62,978 nt of DNA, taken from assembly GCA_031267895.1 (NCBI GenBank), contig JAIRYF010000007.1:1-62978 (forward strand). The letters are read 5' to 3'. The notes under the pieces are model-generated. The model did no database searches. It was given only the letters and a program-made list of their open reading frames with translations, and was not told the origin of the DNA. The stretch is from Candidatus Methanoplasma glyptotermitis. Lineage in GTDB: Archaea; Thermoplasmatota; Thermoplasmata; Methanomassiliicoccales; Methanomethylophilaceae. The translations under genes and the position numbers were made by a program. Below are positions 10,196 to 52,797 of this stretch, piece by piece (the first letter of the stretch is position 1; the number at the start of each line of letters is the position of its first letter).

Positions 10196-10617
10196 TTGTG
10201 TTTTACCGGACAGGCATCGCAAAACAATTGGAAATAACTATTGCGGAGAACACCGCCGTGTACGGCGGCAGTCTCTGCTGTTTTTGAACCGAACCGCGTT
10301 CTGCTGCCGAGACCGCTGCTGCAGACAGAATCTGCACCAGTAAGACCGCAGCCATCAGAAACCCAACACATATGTACAGATTACTCTGTGTTTTATGGTG
10401 ACAGGTGCAACCGCCCCGTACAATTCGTCGTATAGGTTTGTTTTGCGCAACCGATCAACTCATATAGCCATATCCGCAAAAGAATCTGCAATGATTGTAC
10501 GGATCAGGTTCTCTTTGAAAGAGGACCTATGAATATATATACAACATATGCCGGTGCGCGGTATATTGTCGCATACCTCATGAAGGCAGCGCATTAAAAC
10601 GAGAAGGTGTGAAACTT

Positions 10618-12770
10618 ATGAAAGTGAAACCACTGATAGGACCCTCTTTTCCGGTGAAGACTCACACGGGGGGGGGGGGAATTATAATTTCCCCCGTCGC
10701 CTGAATATAACTGTCTTATTCGCTGTTGCTTTGTTTCTCGCAGCGGCTTTCTTTTTGATACATGCGGAAACTGACGAGTCTGATGCCGCTGATTTCTTGG
10801 ACTCGGGTATAAGTTACACGACCGACGGAATGCCGGCAGGAGAAGTGTCCGTCAAAGGCTGGTGGGGCGGCGCAGCGACCGAGATTATAATACCGCCAAC
10901 AGTGGAGAACGGCGGGTCAACATACAGCGTAACGTCCATAGGCGACGGTGCATTTGGAAGCAACAGCTATGTCGAATCCATCGAAATACCCAACAGCGTA
11001 ACGTCCATAGGACATTCGGCATTCCAACTCTGCACTAATCTGAAATCTATCGAAATACCAGGCAGCGTAACGTCCATAGGTACAGGAGCATTCTATAACT
11101 GTTCCCGGCTCGAGTCCGTCAATATACTAGGCAACAGCCTGACCAAGGTTGCCGATTCCGCGTTCAGCTCGTGTCCGTTCAAATTCGTCAACATACCGGA
11201 CAGCGTGACGGAAATCGGCAACCTTGCATTCTTTTACTGCAGCTTTCTGGAATCCATCGATCTGCCCAGCGGTCTGAAGAAGATCGGAGACGATGCATTC
11301 AGCAACTGCCAACGCCTGGAATCTATAGCCATACCCAGTGGCGTGACATCCATTGGTACCAGGGCATTTGCCAATAACGGTCTGACATCTGTTACCATAC
11401 CGGATAGTGTGACTTCCATCGGTACAGAGGCATTCGCCAATTGTGGCAGTCTTACATCCATTACCATACCGGACAGTGTGACAAATATCAGCAGCGGAGC
11501 ATTCGCTAACTGCAGTTCCATCGAAACTATGATCGTAACGGGTGAACTCGTCAGCGGAGATACTCTCGCATCTGGTGTAGTAGATTTGTATTTCACCAAA
11601 GGCAAGCAAATGAAGCTGCCGGGCGCAACCAAGACTGTAGTGTCTCTGACGCTCAGAGATATCAGCAGTGCAGATTACAGTCCCGATGATCTCGACGGCA
11701 AAGGCGGTATCGGAGGAAGTACAGAAAGGAAACTCAAGCTCAGTGATGCCAAATTTGTTTGGAATTGGGCTTTATCGAAATGGGAATCTGTTTATTCCGT
11801 TTCGGGGGTTCTCACTGTAACCGGCGGATCGGCATCCGCCGGAGGCAAGACAGTCTCCCTGATATATCTGGCGCGGATCTATGACGCAGTTACCGAAGCT
11901 GACGGCAGCTATACCATAGAGAATGTGCCGAAAGGTGCGTTTGGCGACATAACTATCGCCGTCGGAGGGTATGCACAGATGGCGACTCCTTCCGTTACGC
12001 CGCTTGCGGCAGATGTAACTGGGAATAATATTACTATTGTCGCCGTATACACTGTGATCTTCACAAAGGGAACGGGTATCAGTGAATTCGCATACATAAT
12101 CAACGGCGGTTTCCCAATTGGATATACCGAATCGTTCTCAGTGAAGCACGGCGACAGTCTGAGAGCAATAGCCCTGCCATCGGAAGGATATGTATTCAAA
12201 ACATGGTCTGGATATTCGGGTTCTTCAAGTAATCCGTTAATAGTGTCTGCAGTGTCGGGAGACATATCTCTGACGGCATCCGCTTCGCAGATACCCGTAC
12301 CCGTTCCATCGTCTACTTCGGATACTTATTACAGCATTACGTTCAGTTCCGGTTCTTATTATACGGTATACGATACAAAAGGTCCTGTATCCTCACCGAT
12401 AACTGTTACGGAAGGAGGAAGCCTTACATTCAGAGTACAGACATCCGAAGGATATTCTGTATCTTCTCCGGTTATTTCCGGAAATGCAAAGATTACTCCT
12501 CAGACCGACGGATGGTACAGGATATCCGAAATACATTCGGATATTCACGTTAACGTAACCGTATCCGCATACAGTGATTCCGGGGAAGGACCCGGAGAAG
12601 GTTCGGGAGACGGAGACGGCAGCGGAAACGGATCCGAAGAAAACTCCGGTAGCCGCGGGTCTCACTCGGTTCTCATAATTGCAGTGTTGCTTGTCTGTGT
12701 TTTAGCGATAGGAATTATTTTGTTCTTCCTCAAGCGCAGGAAGGACGACGAGGAAGAGGACGGCAGATGA
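10618..12770 (+). CDS. BspA-like leucine-rich-repeat surface protein 1, frame-interrupted at a poly-G tract
   Basis: SD GAAGGTG then ATG 10618; main ORF NYNFPRRLNITVLFAVALFLAAAFF...LRRs...C-term TM is in another frame; 12 Gs at 10668-10679, 10 or 13 needed. Confidence 0.85.
10668..10679 (+). repeat. Poly-G(12) tract in 5' coding region (predicted OFF)
   Basis: CACAC-G12-AATTATAATTTCCCCC. Confidence 0.9.
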
Positions 12771-12805: not shown

Positions 12806-15631
12806 ATGAGTACGAGATCTTTGAAAAAGTCAATTCCTTCGGGAAAAACAACACACAGGGGGGGGGGGAATTATAATTTCCCCCGTAACCTGAATGTAGC
12901 TATCATATTCGCTGTTGCTTTGATTACTGCAGCGGCATTCTTTGTAATACATAATGAACCCAATGGATCGGACGCCGCCGGCGGAAGCGCGGGTGACAGT
13001 GTGACATGGGACGTTGTGGGTGATACCCTTACTATATCCGGCACCGGTGGTATGTATGTCTACGGTTTAGATGAGTCACCGTGGCAAAGCTATAGATCTA
13101 GCATAAAGAATATTGCCATAACAGGGAGTGTAACGTCCATTTATGGGTTCGATCGCTTGAATGTCAAATCCGTGACCATACCAAACAGCGTGGTGACCAT
13201 CGGCGATCATGCATTCTATAACTGCATTAGCCTCACCTCCGTGACCATAGGCAGCAATGTGGAAACCATCGGCGATAGGACATTCTACGGCTGCACTGGT
13301 CTCACCTCCGTGACCATACCAAACAGCGTGGTGACCATTGGCGATAGGGCATTCTACAGTTGCACCGGCCTCACCTCCGTGACCATAGGCGGCAATGTGG
13401 AAACTATCGGCAAGGGTGCATTTGAAGGCTGCACCGGCCTCACCTCCGTAACTATACCGAATAGCGTTATAACCCTTGGACAGGCTGAAGCATTTGCTGA
13501 ATTTGGTGTATTCAAAGACTGCACTGGTCTCACCTCTGTGACCATAGGCAGCAATGTGGAAACCATCGGCGGTAGGGCATTCTATGGCTGCACCGGCCTC
13601 ACCTCTGTGACCATAGGCAGCAATGTGGAAACTATCGGCAATAGTGCATTTGAAGGCTGCCGATTACTCAAGTCCATAGTTATACCGGACAGTGTGACGG
13701 TCATAAGCGAGAGTGCATTCTCTGGTTGCTACTTACTCGCATCCGTAACCATTGGTAGCAATGTGAAAAACATCAGCCATAGTGCATTTAGTGGCTGCCG
13801 ATTACTCGAGTCCATAGTTATACCGGACAGTGTGGAAATCATTGGCACTGGTGCATTCAGCGGCTGCACCAGCCTCGAATCTGTAGTCATACCTGATTCT
13901 GTACTTGATATCGGAAATTATGCATTTCAAAGCTGCAGCAGTCTTGTATCTGTGACGGTCACCAGAGAATTTACTGAAGAATACCTGCCAGGAGTAATAG
14001 AGCGTTGTTTCAATGCAGAAGCAGCCTGGGCACTTCCAGGACAGAGTAGCGCAACGGTAATGAGTTTAACTTTGGAGGATATCAGCTCACTGGAATACGA
14101 TCCGAACAACACCGATGGCCTAGGGGGCATAGCCGGAGACGATGGAAGAAGATTAGTCTATAGTGATGCGGAATTCGTGTGGGACGCTCCGTTTGATCTG
14201 CCAGCGAGGTGGGGATACTCAGTGCTTGGAACCCTTACGGTAATCGGAGGATCTGCTTCCGAGGAAGGTGTGACCATAACTCTCACGCACGGGGCCAGAG
14301 AATACACCGCAGAGACTGGACCGGACGGTGTGTATGCCGTAAGAGGTCTGCCTGTTGGTACGGAAGGAGACATAACGGCAGAGATAACAGGATATCATCA
14401 GACGATCACGCCGTCGGCATCCCCACTCTCAGGCAGTGTAGAGGAGAAGGACCTCACGCTTGAAATCGACACGTACAAGGTATCCGGTACCCTCACGGTA
14501 AACGGAGGATCCGCATCCAACGTCGGAGTTACGGTATCTCTGGGAACTTCGGGACTGTACACTGCAGTCACAACAGCAGGCGGAGCCTATGAGATAAACG
14601 GAGTTCCTTACGAAACGTCCGGAAAAATAACAGCAACCATATCGGGATACACTCAAACAGTGACTCCAAGTGTGACCTCCATCTCCAATGATCAAAGTGG
14701 TATGGATCTTACCTTGGTCGTTGCGTACAAGGTATCCGGTACCCTCACGGTAAACGGAGGATCCGCATCCAACGTCGGAGTGGAAGTGTACCTGGGAACG
14801 CTGCATGCAACAACGGCAGCAGGCGGAGCCTACACCATAACGGGAGTTCCCCACGGAACGACTGAGAACATAACCGCAACGATAACGGGATACACTCAGA
14901 CCGGTACCGCGTCCGTAACAGCAATCGCGGCCGACGCGACCGGCAAGAACATTACGCTGGAATATACTGCACCGGCACCTGCCACGCCGTCTGCTGCACA
15001 GTATTATTACCGTGTTACGTTCGATTCCGGTCCCAACTATACAGTATATGTCAATGGCTCTCCTGTATCTTCTGCTATAACAGTCGCGGAAGGAGAGATT
15101 CTTGTTTTCTTCCTACAGGCAACTGAGGGATATTCAGTATCTCCTTCCGTTGTTTCCGGAAATGCAGAGATTACTGTTCAGGCTGACGGACGGTATAAGA
15201 TATCTGGCATACACTCGAACGTACATGTAACCCTGACAGCGACATTGGGAAGCGGTTCCGGCGGAGGGCACAATGACAGTAATGATGGCAGTTCAGACAG
15301 CACAGACACTGATGGCGAATGGGCCGTGCTCAACCTAGTGTGTGCGATCATTGCGATATGTGCAGGCATCATTGTAATCGCAGCCGGAAGGAACCATTTG
15401 GAAGAAAATGCGAGGAAAATAGGATCGAAGACAGCCGGTACCCTGAGAGCAGCACCGTTTATCCTGGGAATAGCATCAATGGTTGTTTTCTTCCTGACCG
15501 AAGATGTGAGTCTTAATCCAGTGGCAGCGGATGCCTGGACTGTACCGATGTTTATTCTTCTGATGTGTGCACTTGTACTCGCAGCAATCGGTCTCAGGCC
15601 ACAAAAGATCCGGAAAACCGATAAACACTGA
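12806..15631 (+). CDS. BspA-like LRR surface protein 2 with carboxypeptidase-regulatory-like repeats and multi-TM C-term anchor
   Basis: SD GAGGTG, ATG 12806, MSTRSLKKSIPSGKTTHRGGGNYNFPRNLNVAIIFAVAL in frame; 23-aa LRR units. Confidence 0.9.
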   Translation: MSTRSLKKSIPSGKTTHRGGGNYNFPRNLNVAIIFAVALITAAAFFVIHNEPNGSDAAGGSAGDSVTWDVVGDTLTISGTGGMYVYGLDESPWQSYRSSIKNIAITGSVTSIYGFDRLNVKSVTIPNSVVTIGDHAFYNCISLTSVTIGSNVETIGDRTFYGCTGLTSVTIPNSVVTIGDRAFYSCTGLTSVTIGGNVETIGKGAFEGCTGLTSVTIPNSVITLGQAEAFAEFGVFKDCTGLTSVTIGSNVETIGGRAFYGCTGLTSVTIGSNVETIGNSAFEGCRLLKSIVIPDSVTVISESAFSGCYLLASVTIGSNVKNISHSAFSGCRLLESIVIPDSVEIIGTGAFSGCTSLESVVIPDSVLDIGNYAFQSCSSLVSVTVTREFTEEYLPGVIERCFNAEAAWALPGQSSATVMSLTLEDISSLEYDPNNTDGLGGIAGDDGRRLVYSDAEFVWDAPFDLPARWGYSVLGTLTVIGGSASEEGVTITLTHGAREYTAETGPDGVYAVRGLPVGTEGDITAEITGYHQTITPSASPLSGSVEEKDLTLEIDTYKVSGTLTVNGGSASNVGVTVSLGTSGLYTAVTTAGGAYEINGVPYETSGKITATISGYTQTVTPSVTSISNDQSGMDLTLVVAYKVSGTLTVNGGSASNVGVEVYLGTLHATTAAGGAYTITGVPHGTTENITATITGYTQTGTASVTAIAADATGKNITLEYTAPAPATPSAAQYYYRVTFDSGPNYTVYVNGSPVSSAITVAEGEILVFFLQATEGYSVSPSVVSGNAEITVQADGRYKISGIHSNVHVTLTATLGSGSGGGHNDSNDGSSDSTDTDGEWAVLNLVCAIIAICAGIIVIAAGRNHLEENARKIGSKTAGTLRAAPFILGIASMVVFFLTEDVSLNPVAADAWTVPMFILLMCALVLAAIGLRPQKIRKTDKH
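12858..12868 (+). repeat. Poly-G(11) tract, in frame (predicted ON)
   Basis: CACACA-G11-AATTATAATTTCCCCC. Confidence 0.9.
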
Positions 15632-16002: not shown

Positions 16003-18005
16003 ATGAACATGAAATCTTCAAAAGGAGTCCTTTCTTCCTCCAAGGTCAAACACAGGGGGGGGGGGGAAATTATAATTTCCCCAGCCGTCTGAATATAACT
16101 GTATTATTTGCTGCTACTCTGTTTCTCGCAGCAGCATTCTTTGTAACGTATTCCGAACCTGATGAGTCGGATGCATACGGAGATCCGACTTTTAGTTTTA
16201 CCCTTGACTCTGTCAATTACAAAATCTCCGGTTCGAATGTGAATGTAGTCGGATGGGAAAACGGTATATCTGCCGATCTTGAAATACCGGTGACCGTTAT
16301 CCAAAATGAAATACAGTACACAGTGACATCCATAAACCTTCAGGCATTCTCCGGTTGCAACATCCTGAAAACCGTGACGATACAGGGTAACGTGGGAACC
16401 ATTGGCAACTCTGCATTCGCCAGTTGCACCAACCTGATATCTGTTGTCATACTGAACAGTGTGACAACCATCGGCAATCAGGCATTCTTCAACTGCGGAA
16501 ACCTTGAAACCGTGACGATAGGCGGTAACGTGGGAAATATCGGCAACAATGCATTTGATAGATGCACCAACCTCGGAAACGAGGCGGTAAAGGCGATACT
16601 TAAGGGTGTGACAACCATCGGCAATAGTGCATTCAGCACTTGCACCAGTTTGGTATCCGTTACAATACCCGACAGCGTAACATCTATCGGCAACAATGCA
16701 TTCGCCAATTGCGATGCCCTTGAAACAGTGACTATAGGTGGTAGAGTGGAAAAAATCGACAGCTCTGTATTCTCCCACTGCACCAATCTGGAATCCATAG
16801 TCATACCTAGCAGCGTGACAACAATTAGCACCGGCGCATTTGCATCCTCTAGCCTTAAGTCCGTCACAATACCCGACAGCGTGACATTCTCGAGTGGCTA
16901 TGGCCAAGGTGCATTCTATGGATGTGCAAACCTGACATCTGTGACGGTAACAGGCGTACTTGATGGAGAGGGAAAAACAGTTGCAGGCGGAATAATAGAT
17001 ACATATTTCAAAAAGGGAAAGGACTGGAAACTGCCCGGAATGTCCGACCCCACTCCCATAAAATCTCTGACTCTGAAAGACATAAGTTCCCTGGATTACG
17101 ATCCCGATAACGAAAACGGAGGCATAGCAGGAGACGAAGGAAGAGAACTGTATTACAGCAACACCAAGTTTACTTGGAATACAGAGGATTCAAAATGGGA
17201 TGTCAGCACATATACTGTAACTCTCGGAAAGGGAACAGAAGGAATCTGCGGTTTTGAATACAGTACCGTCGGCAGCATCGGTCCTGCCGTTACTGTAAAC
17301 GAATCCTTTACCGTGAACCATGGAGATACTGTCATCATAACCGCTCTGCTCTCGGAAGGATACGAGTTCGTCTCGTGGTCGGGATACCCGGAGTCTTCGG
17401 AACAGAATCCCGAAGAGAATCCGTTAACCGTACCGTACGTATCCGAAAACATATCCTTAACGGCATATGCTTCTCTCATACCTGTTCCTACGTCTGCTTC
17501 GGATACGTTATACCTTATCGTATTCGATTACGGCGATTACGGTTCCGGCTGTACCGTATACGTTAACGGTTCTCCGGTACCGTTATCATCTTCACAGGTA
17601 ACCGTAACGGAAGGAGAGAATCTTATCTTCGCGGTGAGTACACCAGAAGGATATACTGTATATCCTTCCGTTGTTTCCGGAACCGCAGATATAACTCTTC
17701 AGGCAGACGGACGTTACAGATTATCGGATATACGTTCCGATATCCGTATCAGCATAACCGTAAACACAGTATCCGGAGACGGCAGCATCGGAAACGGTTC
17801 AGGAGACAGTCCGTACGGTAACGGAATAGGCCGCGGCGGCACAGACAGCACAGGTAACGGCGGCGGTTCGGGAAACGAAAGTAATTCAACCAGAGGCTCC
17901 GGAAATGATGGCATACCCGCTTGGGTTCCCGTTCTCCTAGTCTTAGCGTTTCTCACCTGTATTGCAGCATTTTTGATCGTGAAACGCAGTAAGAACAGAC
18001 AATGA
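16003..18005 (+). CDS. BspA-like LRR surface protein 3, frame-interrupted at a poly-G tract
   Basis: SD AAGGAG, ATG 16003 (MNMKSSKGVLSSSKVKHRGGG...) is out of frame with GNYNFPSRLNITVLFAATLFLAAAFF; 12 Gs, 10 or 13 needed. Confidence 0.85.
16055..16066 (+). repeat. Poly-G(12) tract (predicted OFF)
   Basis: CACA-G12-AAATTATAATTTCCCC. Confidence 0.9.
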
Positions 18006-38170: not shown

Positions 38171-41100
38171 ATGCTAGTTGGCTCTCGTGCGTTAGACCGC
38201 CTCCCTAGGGGGGGGGGGGAAACCAAGTAAGAAGGCAAATAGGATAGTGCTGGTGACAGCTCTTCTGGTAATTATGACCGCCTCGGCGTTCCTGCTGAGT
38301 GCTGACAACGGTTCGTCCGCGACCGAAATAGTGTTCGGATCGCCGGCGGACAGATTCACGTTCGTTTATGATGATTCGGACAGTCTTGATCTGGATGGAA
38401 ACCCAAGTACAAAGGAGGTCACGTTGAAGAGTTACAATTTCAATGAAGACCTGGTTACTGTTCCGAGCATATATACAGACGGCAATACGGGAATACAGTA
38501 CAAAGTGACTGTTATCGGTACGAACGCTTTCTTTCAAAAAGAGCATATGGTCACTCTCGATATGGGTGAAAACGTGAAAAGAATCGATGCCTCAGCGTTC
38601 AGAGAATGTACGGGACTGAAGAGCCTTAATCTGAAGAATGTAACGGATGTGGGCTATCAGGCATTTATGCATTGTACTAGTGTCACTTCGATTACAGCAA
38701 ACTACCTCGAAACTGTCGGAGACTATGCCTTTGCGATATTGGATGTGGTCAACTTTATTCCATATGCCGGCGATATACCGCTCATAGCGACTCTCAGTCT
38801 TCCTCATGTGAAAACGATAGGGGAGGGCGCGTTCGGAGCCAAAGTGAATACATCTCTTGCAAGGGATTTCAATTCCATCTCTCTTCCGGAGGTAGAAAAC
38901 ATCGGACCATACGCGTTCAACAAATCGAAGATAGAGGTCTCTTTCTCTATACCTGCTGCCGAGACTGTAGGTATGTTTGCGTTTTTCTTTGATGCTGCGG
39001 CCGATATGGATACGGCAAAGATAGGCTATTCACTTCAGCTCCAGAGTGTAACTGCGATCGGCAACAGCGCATTCACCGGAAGAAACATCGTCTCGGTCAC
39101 TCTGCCTGCGCTTCAGCTGTATACGATAGGTAACAACGTCTTTGAACATACAAAGCTGCCGTATGCGAATCTGGGCATGGTCTCAAACATAGGCGTTTCC
39201 GCATTTGACCACATTTATGCGCTGGAGTACTTCACAACTGCACCGGACAATCCGAAATATGTGTCGCTGATTTCCAATCCCGGCAGTCCCGGTGAAGAGG
39301 GGGCATTGTACAGAGTCGACAGCGGCGGAAATCCCGATCAGCTGTATAAATTACCAATGCTGATAAAGTCCAAACTTCAGGACAGCGGCAATAAGTTCAC
39401 TGTCAGAGACGGTGTGAAGCAAATGACATCATCGGCTTTCGAGAAATGTCCGTCCATATCTGTCGATCTTAATGAAATAATCTCCGTCCCGGTTAACGCG
39501 TTCTCCTCGTCCGATGTTCTCGAGGTCTCCGCCAAGAAAGTTGCAGCAATAAGCAGTTCGGCATTCACTGGCTGTTCATCCCTGACATCCTTTGAATTCC
39601 TTGATACAGGCGAGACGCTTGAAATCGGCGAAGCTGCTTTCTACGGAACTGGTCTCATAGAGGTGATTCTTCCTGAGAAAACCACTATCGGATCGGAAGC
39701 ATTCGCATCTCTCAGAAACGTCGCTGAGTTGATAGGAGTGTGGGGTGACACAAAGATAAAAGAAGATTCATTCAGCGGCGTGAGCATGGAGGCTCTCCGT
39801 GTCAGTTCAAATGCATCGACAAGGAGCGGCGCGGAGGCATTCTATCATGACTGGAATGATAAGGGGTGGATATACGGAAGTTCAGAGAAGGTTCCTTTGC
39901 TCCAGATATACAGCGAAGGCGGTGTCAAAATATCCGATCTCAAGCCCGACGGACAAGGACGGATACAGATAATGAATATGGCGACATTCAGTACCGATTC
40001 TTCACTCACAGGCGATTTGCAGTTTGTCGAATTCAAAAGTCTGAGAGATCCGCAGTTCCATATGATTTCCGTCAAGAGCGGCATATATGCCGCGGAGACG
40101 CATGGGAGTTTAGGAGATGGGATAAAAATAGCAGACAATGTCAACGGCAATACATACACTAATGGAAAAGAGGCTTACAGCGGAGATGGGGTTACTTGGG
40201 AACTTATCACAGAATACTATCTGATTATATTCTATACATTCCCCACTGACGGTGACGAGGATGATGATGGAATAGAGGATGGGCAAGATCCGGACTATAT
40301 AAACCCAGAACTCACGGGAAGCGACGTGAGCACACGCACATACTATACAGTGGGTTCATACCTTGCGGGAAGGGACCTTAAATCCATGCTTTGGCAATCG
40401 TTTGTCAGATACAGCCTTGCCGGATGGTATGTGGGAGATGATCCGGACCACAATCTCGTAAGCAATATGACCAATAACCGAGTGACATCAAGCGATGCAT
40501 TCGGGAGGAGCATCCAGGATTCATGGATATTCCGAGATTCGGTTACCGACGAAGGCTGGCTGAATCTCTATGCCAGATTCATGGGCAAGGAGTACAATAT
40601 CCAAACAGAGGCCAGGCTGACCGGGGGCCAAAATACAACCGGTAACAGCGATGATCCGAACGGCATCGGCGGAAGCGTCCAGCTTATATTGGATCCGCTT
40701 GTGCCCGGATACGATGGTTTCGAAACGGGAACAGGCGGGGCCGGTCAGGGCAGTTACCCGTTCGGAACATCCATAACTCTCAACGCTATACCCAATGCAG
40801 GATATGCGTTCGTCGGCTGGGGAGTTATAGAGATGGCAGAGGGCGAGGAGGGAAGTACTGCTCATCCGCTGTTCACCATCAAAAGTGACAGAAGCTATCT
40901 TGATAAAACGGGCATCGATCGCATCGCCGTTTGGACATTCGATCTGCCTTCACAGATAAAGTATGTGGCTTATTTCGCCAAAACAACGACTGTGAATTTC
41001 GATCAAAACAAAGCCAACGCTGTCAACAGTAGCAAAGAATACGTCATCGGTGACAGACTGGTCGAAAACAACAATGACTACAACGGCTATGATTGGGATG

Positions 41101-44100
41101 CATTGGTTGAGGACCCAGCGGGAACTGTCGGACAGAACGGCAAAGGAATTTCGTCATATCCCAGCACACCCGTAAACACCGATCTGACATTCGGCGGATG
41201 GTACTATAATACAACAGCTTATGCACTGTACGACAGTACCGATGCCGCGTTCCCGGGCACTTATTTAAAAACACTTCAAATAATACCGACCACACCGAAT
41301 CCCCTGACCCTCGTTGCGAAATGGTATGCCACGATAACGTTCTATCCGGATGACGGAACAAACGATGCCAGTCTGACCGGAACGGGTCTGACCGAGACGG
41401 GAAGCGGTACCGGCGTGTACACCTACCAGCATGATGCGGGCAAATATGCTGCAGGCACAGGTTACAACGGAGCTTTCGACTACGGTGTTGCTCTTTCGCC
41501 TACTGCACCGGATATGGCATTCAATGGCTGGTATGTCCTTTCGGGCGGCAATACGTTCAGCGACATCGACACAGTGACAGCCGGAACGAACAGCGGTACG
41601 CCGTACCCAGACATATACGGCACCAAAAAGAGACTTCAGCCGGGGACGCTGGTTGACGGTCACACATCTCTGATGGCATTGTATGTTGCCAACGCAGAAT
41701 TCTACTTCAACGGAGCCGACAGCATTGATACGTCGGTCAGTTTGCCGTCGCCATATTCGGTGACGGTCGGGGTATCGGAGCCTGTATACCTGGGCAGCTC
41801 TCCTTTCGATGCGGTAAACGCGGCGATGCTGAGTACAAATACTTATAAGTCTGATACGAAGGACAGTAAAATGGAATTTATGGGCTGGTATGTATCAGCC
41901 GACGGCAGTACTTCTCCGGTTGCGACCGATGCCAAATATAGTTCAACCACACAGATTACCGGGAACGTTAAACTGATTGCAGGATGGGGAGTATCCGTTA
42001 CCTTCAGTGCCGACGGTCTGTCATCAATAGACGACACAGGTACAGGAGATGAATGGATCTCGTCTGACTATGCTTTTACCGTTCTGGAAGGGACTGTATT
42101 TGAGGTCGATTACGACAGCGGCAGTGCAGGAGAATGCATGCCAGTACTGACATCTGGGGGTGAGTCTCCGACATCATGGTATGACGGTGTGAGTCACCCG
42201 TATATCTGGTATACAGACGGCGTAACAAAGTATACGTACAGTGTTGTGCTGACCCCCGAATTCGGAGACCTCTTCCAATTCAACACCATGGGCGGAAATA
42301 CAGGTATTGTTTACGTCGCGTACTATTCCTCCGAAACATTCGGGGATGTCCTTGAACATTTTTACGATAACATCAATGACGCAGGGACATATGTCAATCC
42401 GACGAAGACCGGACTTTACTACGAGGATGACGGAACTGTCATAACGCCGGGACAGAAGCCCAACACGGTCTGGTACAAAGATGACGGAGATACGGCAACG
42501 GAAAATCCGAATATAGTATATGTCGGCAATCAGAGTACTCTGGTAAAATGGGACCTGGAAGATCCCGTTTCAGCATCGAATGCTTATGCGTACATAAGAT
42601 GGCTGGCGGATGTGAATTTCGACAGAAATGTACCATATACCAGTGCCGATACCGGCACTACGGCGAATCCGGTCAGTATTACAGGTATTGACGAGGGCAC
42701 CCCATTTTCGTCGCTGTCCGGAGATATGCCGGCAGTCCCCCAGTACAATACAGCCAATGATAAAACATTCAGAGGATGGTATGTCGGCACAACGCAGTAC
42801 GGACTTCCGGACGGAACCGTTTACACCGGAGCCCCCGGCGTTACAGGGACTGTAGAACTTGTTGCAAAATGGAATGTTGAGGTTAAATTCTACTACACAG
42901 GAACTCTGACCAATGCCACTGTGGGGACCGTCGGAACCGATGCCGTCGGAAGTTATATCATAATTGACGTGGGAACCGCCAACAAAGTCTCCGCTGTGCC
43001 TTCGGTCTCAAAGACAAACTTTACCAACAACCATGTGTTCTGGTATGAGAATGGATTCGATGGAACCGTGCCGATAAATGTGTCGAGCATGGCATCGCCG
43101 CCGTCGGAGGCATTTGATCTGACTCAGGACATAATGGTAAATAAGACGCTCTATGTCAGATGGTACGCGGTGGTGGACTTCAGCGTGGACCACACGGTCG
43201 GCGGGTTTTTCGGTACCGTAAGCAAGAATTTGCTCGAGGGATCCAAGCTTTCGGATCTGCCCGAAGATTTGGACCCATATTCCAGCAGTATGCAGCATGC
43301 CGATTGGGAATTCATCGGGTGGTTCAAAGCTCCTCTGACAGCAGATTATGAGGACCTCGGAACGCCATACTACAGAACAGAGTTCGACTATCTGCCCGAT
43401 GACGGGATCACACCGTCAGACAGCGCATCTTCTCTCATCTCGGGAAATGTGACTCTGCACTGGGAGTATGTCGTGCAGGTGAGCTTCGATCCGGGATATG
43501 AGGGAGCGGCACCGATAGATTCGCAGTACCTGCGCGTGGACGAACCGCTTCCGGCCTCCGGAGACAGGTTCACCGCCAAACCGCTGAGAGACGGGGTGGC
43601 ATTCACAGGGTGGTACAATGTCCTCTTGGGAAAGAAATATACCGAGAATGTTCATAACAGCGATGTCCCGAATTCTGAATTGGTCAGCAATTCTATGACC
43701 CTGACGGCAACATGGCTTGTGGTCGTGAAATTCTACGATTTGGATCAATACCGGATGAACGGACTGCAGATCGCCCTGTCCGCGGCGGTGACTCTGAATG
43801 TCGGCCCGGACAGACTTCAGGACACGGACGATGATTTCTTAGAGATGCCGGAAGGCACACAGATAAGGCAGTTTGTAACCAGCGATCCTTATGTGGCAGG
43901 CAAATCATTTGTCTCATGGTTCGCTGAGCAGGAACAGTACGCATCCGGTGCGCCGGACGGCCTATACTCGGACGGGGATACGTCATACGGACTGTCTGAC
44001 AGGATTCTCGGAGATGTCATACTGACCGCAGGATATGGAATTTCGCTGCACTTCGATACCAACGGAGGAACTCCCTCGTCCATCCCGGATGTGCTGGTCA

Positions 44101-45797
44101 TTGAAGGGCAGAGCATAACTCTTCCGGAAAAGCCGGCCAAAAGCAGGCTGACATTCAGCGGATGGGATGACGGTTTGACGGTCTTGGATGCAGGCGACAC
44201 CGTGACCCCTGTCAGCGAGATTACATTTTCCGCGAAATGGCTGGTCGTCGTGAAGATATACGACGGCATCTCGATGACGCCTGTGGCATCCATGCAGTGG
44301 GACGAGGATGCCGGTCCGGATTTCGGATATGATGTCGTGACGAGTTCCGATTACGACGGTTATGTGATAAAGGCGGAAATATCCTGGACAGATTCGGCAG
44401 GCTCTCACGGAGTCACGCTGGAAAAGTTCATTGACAGATATGACAGCTCTGCCGGCGATTGGGTTTCTCTGTACTCCGTGTTCGACGGATGGATAGATCC
44501 CTTCACTGGCACGAAACTGTCGCCGACGGCCGATTTGGAAGACCTGTTTGCAGGTTACGCAGATTCGGCAGCTCTGTTTGCCACTTGGAAAGAGAGAGTA
44601 AGATTCTATGACGGCGATGTTCTACTGCGCACAGATTACGTTGAATCCGGAGCATATCTCGGAACCAAGGCCCAGAGTGCGGCCGAATGGTCTGATCTAT
44701 ACAATCCGACGGTTCCGCTCAACTCGGGTACTTATAGGATACTCAGCAGCGGGGATTTCCTCGCGATTGAGTTCATTACCGTAACTTTCAACGGCAATGG
44801 CGGAACTCCGCAGCTGCAGACATTCAGCGATGTGATATCCGGACAGATGCTCGGCCTAATATCCGGCCTCTCGGAACCAACCCGCAGCGGGATGTACTTC
44901 GCCGGGTGGTATCTGGGCGACACAAGGTATTCTTTCACCGACAAGCTGTATGGCAATGCCGAACTTACCGCAAGATGGGAGTCCGCTCCGGTGGAGAGAT
45001 ATACCGTATTCGCGGCAGCGTATGACGGCGCAAGCATATCTCCGTCGGGAATGATCAAAGTCATGCGCGGAGATTCGGTTTTCTTTGATTTCAACGTTGT
45101 CAGAGGAGATTCGCCGGTGGTGCTGATCGACGGCCAAAGAATCAACTCCGAGGGAATGTCATCCTATGTTTTCAGCAATGTAATGAGCGACCGTTCCATC
45201 GAGATTTTGACGGAACCCGATTTACGGGATGCTGCAGCGTTCCTTTCAGTGGACATCAGCGGCAAAGGAGATGTGCTGTACAGCTCCGACAACGGAACAT
45301 CTTTCAGAATGTATACTGCGCCTCTCCCGATATACGAGGGATTGGATTATGTTCTGGAGGCGGTACCGGCCAGTTCCAGCCACTTTGATCGGTGGAGCGG
45401 CGATGTTTCGGGCAGTGATCCGAGAGTGTACATCGTGGCTGATGGATCAAGGAGTTTCAATGTCACCGCGGAATTCGGAAGTCAGTCAGAATTTTTCGGG
45501 ACCGGGGAACTGGGAATCGCAAACCTGATATGCATGATAATATCTATTGCGATAGGTCTGTCAGCAGTTGCCGTTGCCCGCAGGAAGGACTGCGAAAGCA
45601 ACGGAACAGGCAAGGTCCTGATGTGCGGTGTTTTGGTCGCAGTGTTTATCTCGGCGGTGCTGTTCTTCCTGACTCAGGGATTCAGCGGACAGTGCATAGT
45701 GTATGACAAATGGAGTATTGCGATGGCAGTACTGACTGCGGCAGCACTTGTCATGACATTGGCGGGCGCGAAGTACGGATGCAAAAGAAAGCAATGA
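38171..45797 (+). CDS. Giant (about 2.5k aa) surface protein: LRR-like N-region, many Flg_new/InlB-B repeats, multi-TM anchor; frame-interrupted at poly-G if ATG 38171 is the start
   Basis: Main ORF annotated from GTG 38247 (mid signal peptide); ATG 38171 with TATA-like box about 26 nt upstream reads MLVGSRALDRLPRGGG, out of frame by one G; repeats such as VTFNGNGGTPQLQTF...SGMYFAGWYLGDTRYSFTDKLYGNAELTARW. Confidence 0.85.
38208..38219 (+). repeat. Poly-G(12) tract (11 would be in frame with ATG 38171)
   Basis: CTCCCTA-G12-AAACCAAGTAAG. Confidence 0.9.
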
Positions 45798-52557: not shown

Positions 52558-52797
52558 ATGGCTGATCGTTCGATGCAACAGATAAACATAAAGTGTCCAA
52601 CAGGGATAATCGAACTAATTGACAAAGACATACAAGAAAATCAAGAATTCCGGAACAGATCAGAATACATGCTTGCAGCGTTAAGATATTACATTGATCA
52701 CAGAACAAAAACGCTGGCCGAACGAAAAATCACAAATCAAACAGAAGAAAAAGACTTCATCAAAAACCCGGCAGGGGGGGGGGGTCAGCAACTTTGA
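52558..52797 (+). CDS. Ribbon-helix-helix (CopG-like) DNA-binding protein with poly-G near C-term
   Basis: QQINIKCPTGIIELIDKDIQENQEFRNRSEYMLAALRYYIDH. Confidence 0.72.
   Translation: MADRSMQQINIKCPTGIIELIDKDIQENQEFRNRSEYMLAALRYYIDHRTKTLAERKITNQTEEKDFIKNPAGGGGQQL
52774..52784 (+). repeat. Poly-G(11) tract near 3' end of the RHH gene
   Basis: GGCA-G11-TCAGCAACTTTGATGA. Confidence 0.9.

Follow-up and report, generated by a model that had tools for sequence, protein, structure and literature searches.

A tract of consecutive G's in the 5' coding region of the LRR1 gene of Candidatus Methanoplasma glyptotermitis is interpreted here, with a probability of approximately 80%, as a slipped-strand poly-G contingency switch, one of many in an archaeon whose large surface repertoire would be mostly OFF. 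The length of this tract sets whether the LRR1 body is read in frame from its start codon, and the same arrangement of start, leader, tract and body was identified in a family of paralogous genes across the genome. The window analysed is a stretch of 62,978 nucleotides, and the genome to which it belongs is a draft assembly (1.717 Mb, 72 contigs, 97.85% complete). The sequence places the host as a methanogen of or near the Methanomassiliicoccales; McrA is present in the genome, and its PylRS was found to have its best match to the solved chains 6jp2/6ezd, which we take to be the PylRS of Methanomethylophilus alvus.

The poly-G tract of LRR1 and other tracts of the window

The LRR1 locus was found to comprise the following features:

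10605 to 10617, + strand: SD-like stretch (AAGGTG) upstream of ATG 10618 (from sequence; an AAGGAG-type SD lies at the same place in most of 41 paralogs)
10618 to 10667, + strand: leader, consisting of MKVKPLIGPSFPVKTH and two bases of the codon that follows (from translation)
10668 to 10679, + strand: tract of 12 G's, which puts the gene out of frame; frame restored at 10 or 13 G's (from sequence and translations)
10680 to 10769, + strand: conserved cassette end and signal-peptide-like core, NYNFPRRLNITVLFAVALFLAAAFFLIHAE (from sequence and translation)
10770 to 12770, + strand: body with BspA-type LRR_5 repeats (Pfam PF13306, E=3.6e-61) and C-terminal hydrophobic anchor (from translation)

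An earlier note on this DNA had predicted that LRR1 is phase-OFF at G12 when read from the SD-preceded ATG 10618, and that 13 or 10 G's would restore it. Both predictions were borne out by computed translation. Reading of the sequence and a run scan of the window gave a tract of exactly 12 G's, at which the product of ATG 10618 is MKVKPLIGPSFPVKTHTGGGGIIISPVA followed by a stop, a peptide of 28 residues, with G11 leading to a stop after 22 residues; the two wrong frames terminate 2 and 8 codons past the tract. The same start gives 716 amino acids at G10 and 717 at G13, a complete BspA-type LRR membrane protein in which the N-terminus has a hydrophobic core and the LRRs are joined by a hydrophobic anchor at the C-terminus. 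An in-frame alternative start upstream of the core, which the same note had named as evidence that would speak against it, was looked for in the body frame between TGA 10581 and TTG 10731, and no ATG, GTG or TTG was found; the only other near-start codons upstream of TTG 10731 were CTG 10701, ATA 10707 and ATT 10593.

Further long tracts, with their genes, were identified in the window:

12806 to 15631, + strand: LRR2, same cassette as LRR1, in frame (ON), 941 aa (Pfam, translation)
12858 to 12868, + strand: G11 in LRR2; frame open with 11 or 14 G's (run scan, translation)
16003 to 18005, + strand: LRR3, same cassette as LRR1, out of frame (OFF) (sequence, Pfam, translation)
16055 to 16066, + strand: G12 in LRR3; frame open with 10 or 13 G's (run scan, translation)
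38171 to 45797, + strand: giant LRR/Listeria-Bacteroides repeat protein outside the cassette family; OFF when read from ATG 38171 (sequence, Pfam, translation)
38208 to 38219, + strand: G12 in the giant LRR gene, immediately ahead of its signal-peptide-like core; frame open with 11 or 14 G's (run scan, translation)
52774 to 52784, + strand: G11 tract close to the 3' end of a small ORF that starts at 52559 (sequence)

Homology to PF13306 (LRR_5) was identified using Pfam in all four LRR bodies of the window (205, 285, 187 and 136 bits against a cut-off of 27.7), and translation of the four genes at G10-G14 placed the tract inside the coding region, with its length setting the frame. The start of the giant LRR gene lacks a clear SD. 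Runs of at least nine G's or C's gave 18 overlapping matches in the window compared with 0.59 expected, a number reached by none of 100 dinucleotide shuffles, and the run lengths were bimodal, with none of 8-10, two of 11 and three of 12. GGG accounts for only 13% of the glycine codons in genes neighbouring LRR1, so a glycine stretch alone would not be expected to be pure G. It was also observed that the tract end together with AAATTATAATTTCCCC forms a near-perfect palindrome at positions 10675-10695 (LRR1) and 16063-16082 (LRR3), being perfect in LRR3, which could possibly have a role in slippage or recombination.

A repeated, putative switch cassette across the genome

The genome was found to contain 97 tracts of at least nine G's (three of 9, 18 of 10, 36 of 11, 35 of 12 and five of 13, with none longer than 13), these lengths being taken from one draft assembly in which errors are possible. 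A single repeated cassette holds 45 of them, consisting of an SD of the AAGGAG type, an ATG, a leader of 16-23 codons, G10-13 and (G)NYNFPSRLNITVLFAAALFLAAAFF, followed by the body, although this number is a slight overcount in that C50:27762 and C61:30 look like one locus seen twice. Several cassettes sit at contig ends. The two wrong frames terminate 2 and 8 codons past the tract in most members, as in LRR1, and the bodies of most are open for approximately 390-950 codons, indicating that most members are not decayed genes; C70:7556 and C41:15890, with early stops in the body, are clear exceptions.

Both ON and OFF states, as read from the G-count in the assembled sequence of this one genome, were present among the homologous cassette genes. 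Among members with a clear start, 4/41 were in frame and 37/41 were OFF (binomial p=4.8e-4 against 1/3), and among those with at least 100 codons downstream 3/30 were in frame (p=0.003), these and the other p-values for the family being approximate as its members are related. This problem of kinship is limited by the occurrence of close copies with unlike tract lengths. The G-number required for an open frame was 1 mod 3 in 37/41 members despite their unequal leader lengths, showing that leader and body belong to a single frame. Lengths of this class (10 or 13) were carried by 3/45 family tracts compared with 20/52 of the other tracts (Fisher p=2.4e-4). Two of the four members with another required length were ON, against 2/37 standard members (Fisher p=0.04), and selection might therefore not be the whole cause of the OFF bias, part of which could come from a preference for tracts of 11-12 G's.

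Comparison of family members showed that the tract changes much faster than its flanks between paralogs, as slippage predicts. Among 32 family pairs with eight or fewer differences in approximately 115 flanking bases, 24 differed in G-number (these being paralogs and not alleles of one locus), and one pair with identical 96-base flanks and unrelated far-upstream sequence had G10 in one copy and G11 in the other. Polymorphic sites of the leader were distributed over the three codon positions as 44, 48 and 50, without a clear codon-position signature. Five siblings without a long G-run had upstream context, and four of these were in frame. In C17:2880 the open frame passes through an interrupted GGGCGGGGGGCGG; C63:4089, C46:6044 and C28:6390 have their ATG immediately ahead of the signal peptide. 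The protein can thus do without the glycine stretch. The fifth sibling, C43:6942 (GGAGGGGGG), seems to be locked OFF.

Slippage-driven phase variation is supported, at the level of sequence comparison, as the best reading of the LRR1 switch by the 45 homologous cassettes with few members in frame, by the unlike tract lengths of near-identical copies, by the in-frame siblings without a tract and by the further tracts in R-M and uptake genes described below. During replication the G-run would gain or lose single G's by slipped-strand mispairing, the probable cause of the changes in G-number, and such changes are likely to be reversible. The resulting loops would be left uncorrected, the MutS pathway not having been found in the genus: a search for MutS_V gave a match in 0/17 genomes of the genus compared with 11/14 control genomes, a result that fits with unstable homopolymers. 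MutS absence is common in archaea. Tracts of 10 or 13 G's would join the SD-ATG leader of LRR1 to its signal peptide and LRR body, and tracts of 11 or 12 would yield a short dead-end peptide with a stop 2-8 codons past the tract, in which case the protein would be absent from OFF cells. The products of the cassette genes are presumed to be displayed on the surface, and with the same switch before approximately 45 paralogous genes each cell would display a small and changing subset of them, most being OFF.

Tracts in other genes and in related genomes

Long tracts were also found in genes outside the cassette family. A D12-class N6-adenine methylase (MethyltransfD12, C15:25483) is interrupted after 29 codons by G11, an HsdS (Methylase_S, C17:46730) is interrupted between its two specificity domains by G10, and two PF01497 (Peripla_BP_2) binding proteins, C26:898 (G12) and C47:29316 (G13), are out of frame with the tract near the signal peptide. 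Targets identified by Pfam comprise surface (LRR_5), R-M (MethyltransfD12, Methylase_S) and uptake (Peripla_BP_2) proteins; surface proteins, R-M genes and binding or uptake proteins are classic phase-variable gene types. The interrupted methylase and HsdS could point to phase-variable methylation in an archaeon.

Two long genes (C30:30010 and C27:12255) were observed to be split mid-gene by tracts, that of C30 being helicase/restriction-like by eye, and PADLOC gave no match for the searched pieces of the C30, C27 and 52823 proteins. Three small ORFs (C48:10455, C52:1662 and that with the tract at 52774-52784 of the window) carry poly-G near the 3' end, so their C-terminus would vary; these ORFs have a ribbon-helix-helix/HicB-like likeness that lies below Pfam cut-offs.

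The congeners G014 and G003 were found to possess 64 and 42 tracts of at least nine G's, respectively, in other gene families. Several of these adjoin signal peptides of repeat-type surface proteins, some being linked and some shifted, and a leader of ATGACAGCA type was seen to recur before the tract in G014. A 40-aa cassette probe matched only one of 60 relatives (G008), and weakly, G008 having two distant cassette homologs that are both tract-free. The LRR cassette is almost confined to Candidatus Methanoplasma glyptotermitis among the genomes searched. A search of IMG/VR for the cassette gave no copy, a contig profile scan for the cassette N-terminus with LRR gave only bacterial LRR matches among those listed, and a query with the binding protein over the genus gave only distant homologs.

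Alternative explanations and comparison with known systems

The main rival to slippage at the DNA level is slippage at the RNA level, a form of recoding in which the RNA polymerase slips, or the ribosome shifts frame, on the G-run, so that full-length protein would always be made in a constant proportion, independently of the G-count in the DNA. This would suit a family in which nearly all members are out of frame, and a predicted RNA hairpin (z=-2.26) that takes in the final G's of the tract is in keeping with it. Recoding is nevertheless considered unlikely, as 19 members have one G too many and 18 have one too few; opposite shifts would be needed, whereas ribosomal frameshifting is one-directional, and the one conserved shift direction of a programmed ribosomal frameshift was not found. 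Furthermore, the DNA tract itself differs between near-identical copies, and tract-free siblings are in frame. Polymerase slippage in both directions may occur, with leakage from OFF genes. Somewhat less probable again is a family with only a few expressed genes, in which the OFF members would be pseudogenes or would serve the expressed genes as donors in gene conversion. With approximately nine in ten members out of frame, and early stops in the two bodies noted above, some decay or silence could be suspected, but the missing start or truncated gene to be expected of silent donors was not what was seen: SD and ATG are kept, long frames remain open in most members, and the tract is the sole lesion in most.

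An error of assembly or sequencing, such that every member is truly in frame, must be weighed in a draft with many contig ends at the cassette repeat, homopolymers being error-prone. It is regarded as very improbable, since errors should strike family tracts and other tracts alike, whereas lengths of 10 and 13 are avoided by the former and not by the latter, and since 45 copies carry the tract at the same homologous position. The least credible of the alternatives is constitutive expression of LRR1 from the internal start TTG 10731. This is the start proposed by the ORF caller; as the earlier note had pointed out, it lies in the middle of the hydrophobic core. In addition, a conserved SD and ATG stand upstream of the tract, and the paralog sequences examined have CTG at the place of this TTG.

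Replication slippage in a contingency switch, as preferred here, is a known mechanism, and phase variation by simple repeats is characteristic of host-adapted bacteria. The vlhA family of Mycoplasma gallisepticum resembles the present one in that it comprises tens of paralogous genes for surface proteins, switched by repeat length, of which few are expressed at once. The two differ in that the vlhA repeat, GAA, lies ahead of the promoter and affects transcription, and the G-run described here lies inside the coding sequence and acts on the frame. Poly-G/poly-C contingency loci (phasomes) are known in Campylobacter and Neisseria (PMC6321876, PMC5953494), with, as here, a G-run in the 5' coding region that sets the frame, many loci per genome, and surface proteins and R-M genes as targets. 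Unlike those cases, the host here is an archaeon, approximately half of the tracts belong to one paralogous family and approximately nine in ten of its members are OFF; switching has been measured in Campylobacter and Neisseria, whereas here it is predicted from assembled sequence. A survey of 5' homopolymeric tracts in prokaryotic genes, with 18 archaeal genomes included, likewise treated homopolymers near gene starts as inactivation switches, although those it found were short poly-A/T (PMC2831843). For Methanomassiliicoccales, a genome has been described as holding at most 9 clusters of LRR and 26 of Listeria-Bacteroides proteins, with a role in adhesion proposed. These BspA-type LRR/Listeria-Bacteroides proteins are of the same protein classes and from the same or a near order, but tracts and phase variation are unmentioned in the passages concerned (PMC7883539), while here approximately 50 copies share one switch cassette.

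No report of simple-repeat phase variation in archaea was found in the open-access literature, where the descriptions that were found all concern bacteria; a 2025 review places the extension of phase variation to archaea in future work (PMC11868660). What is new is judged to be the domain of life, the unusual scale and the OFF bias. A wider proposal, to which we give even odds, is that of a default-OFF surface coat of approximately 45-50 genes with only a few expressed per cell, accompanied by phase variation of uptake proteins and of R-M specificity, in a genus in which MutS was not found; the frame offset of the cassette (ON only at 10 or 13 in most members) would make the commonest lengths, 11 and 12, OFF. 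If the contingency switch is real, automatic annotation of genomes like this one would mis-start or split dozens of real surface proteins. Archaea would then use the same bet-hedging device as bacteria, here with 97 poly-G tracts of which approximately 45 precede one surface-protein family, and the benefit may be escape from viruses, protozoa or the host, or diversity of adhesion.
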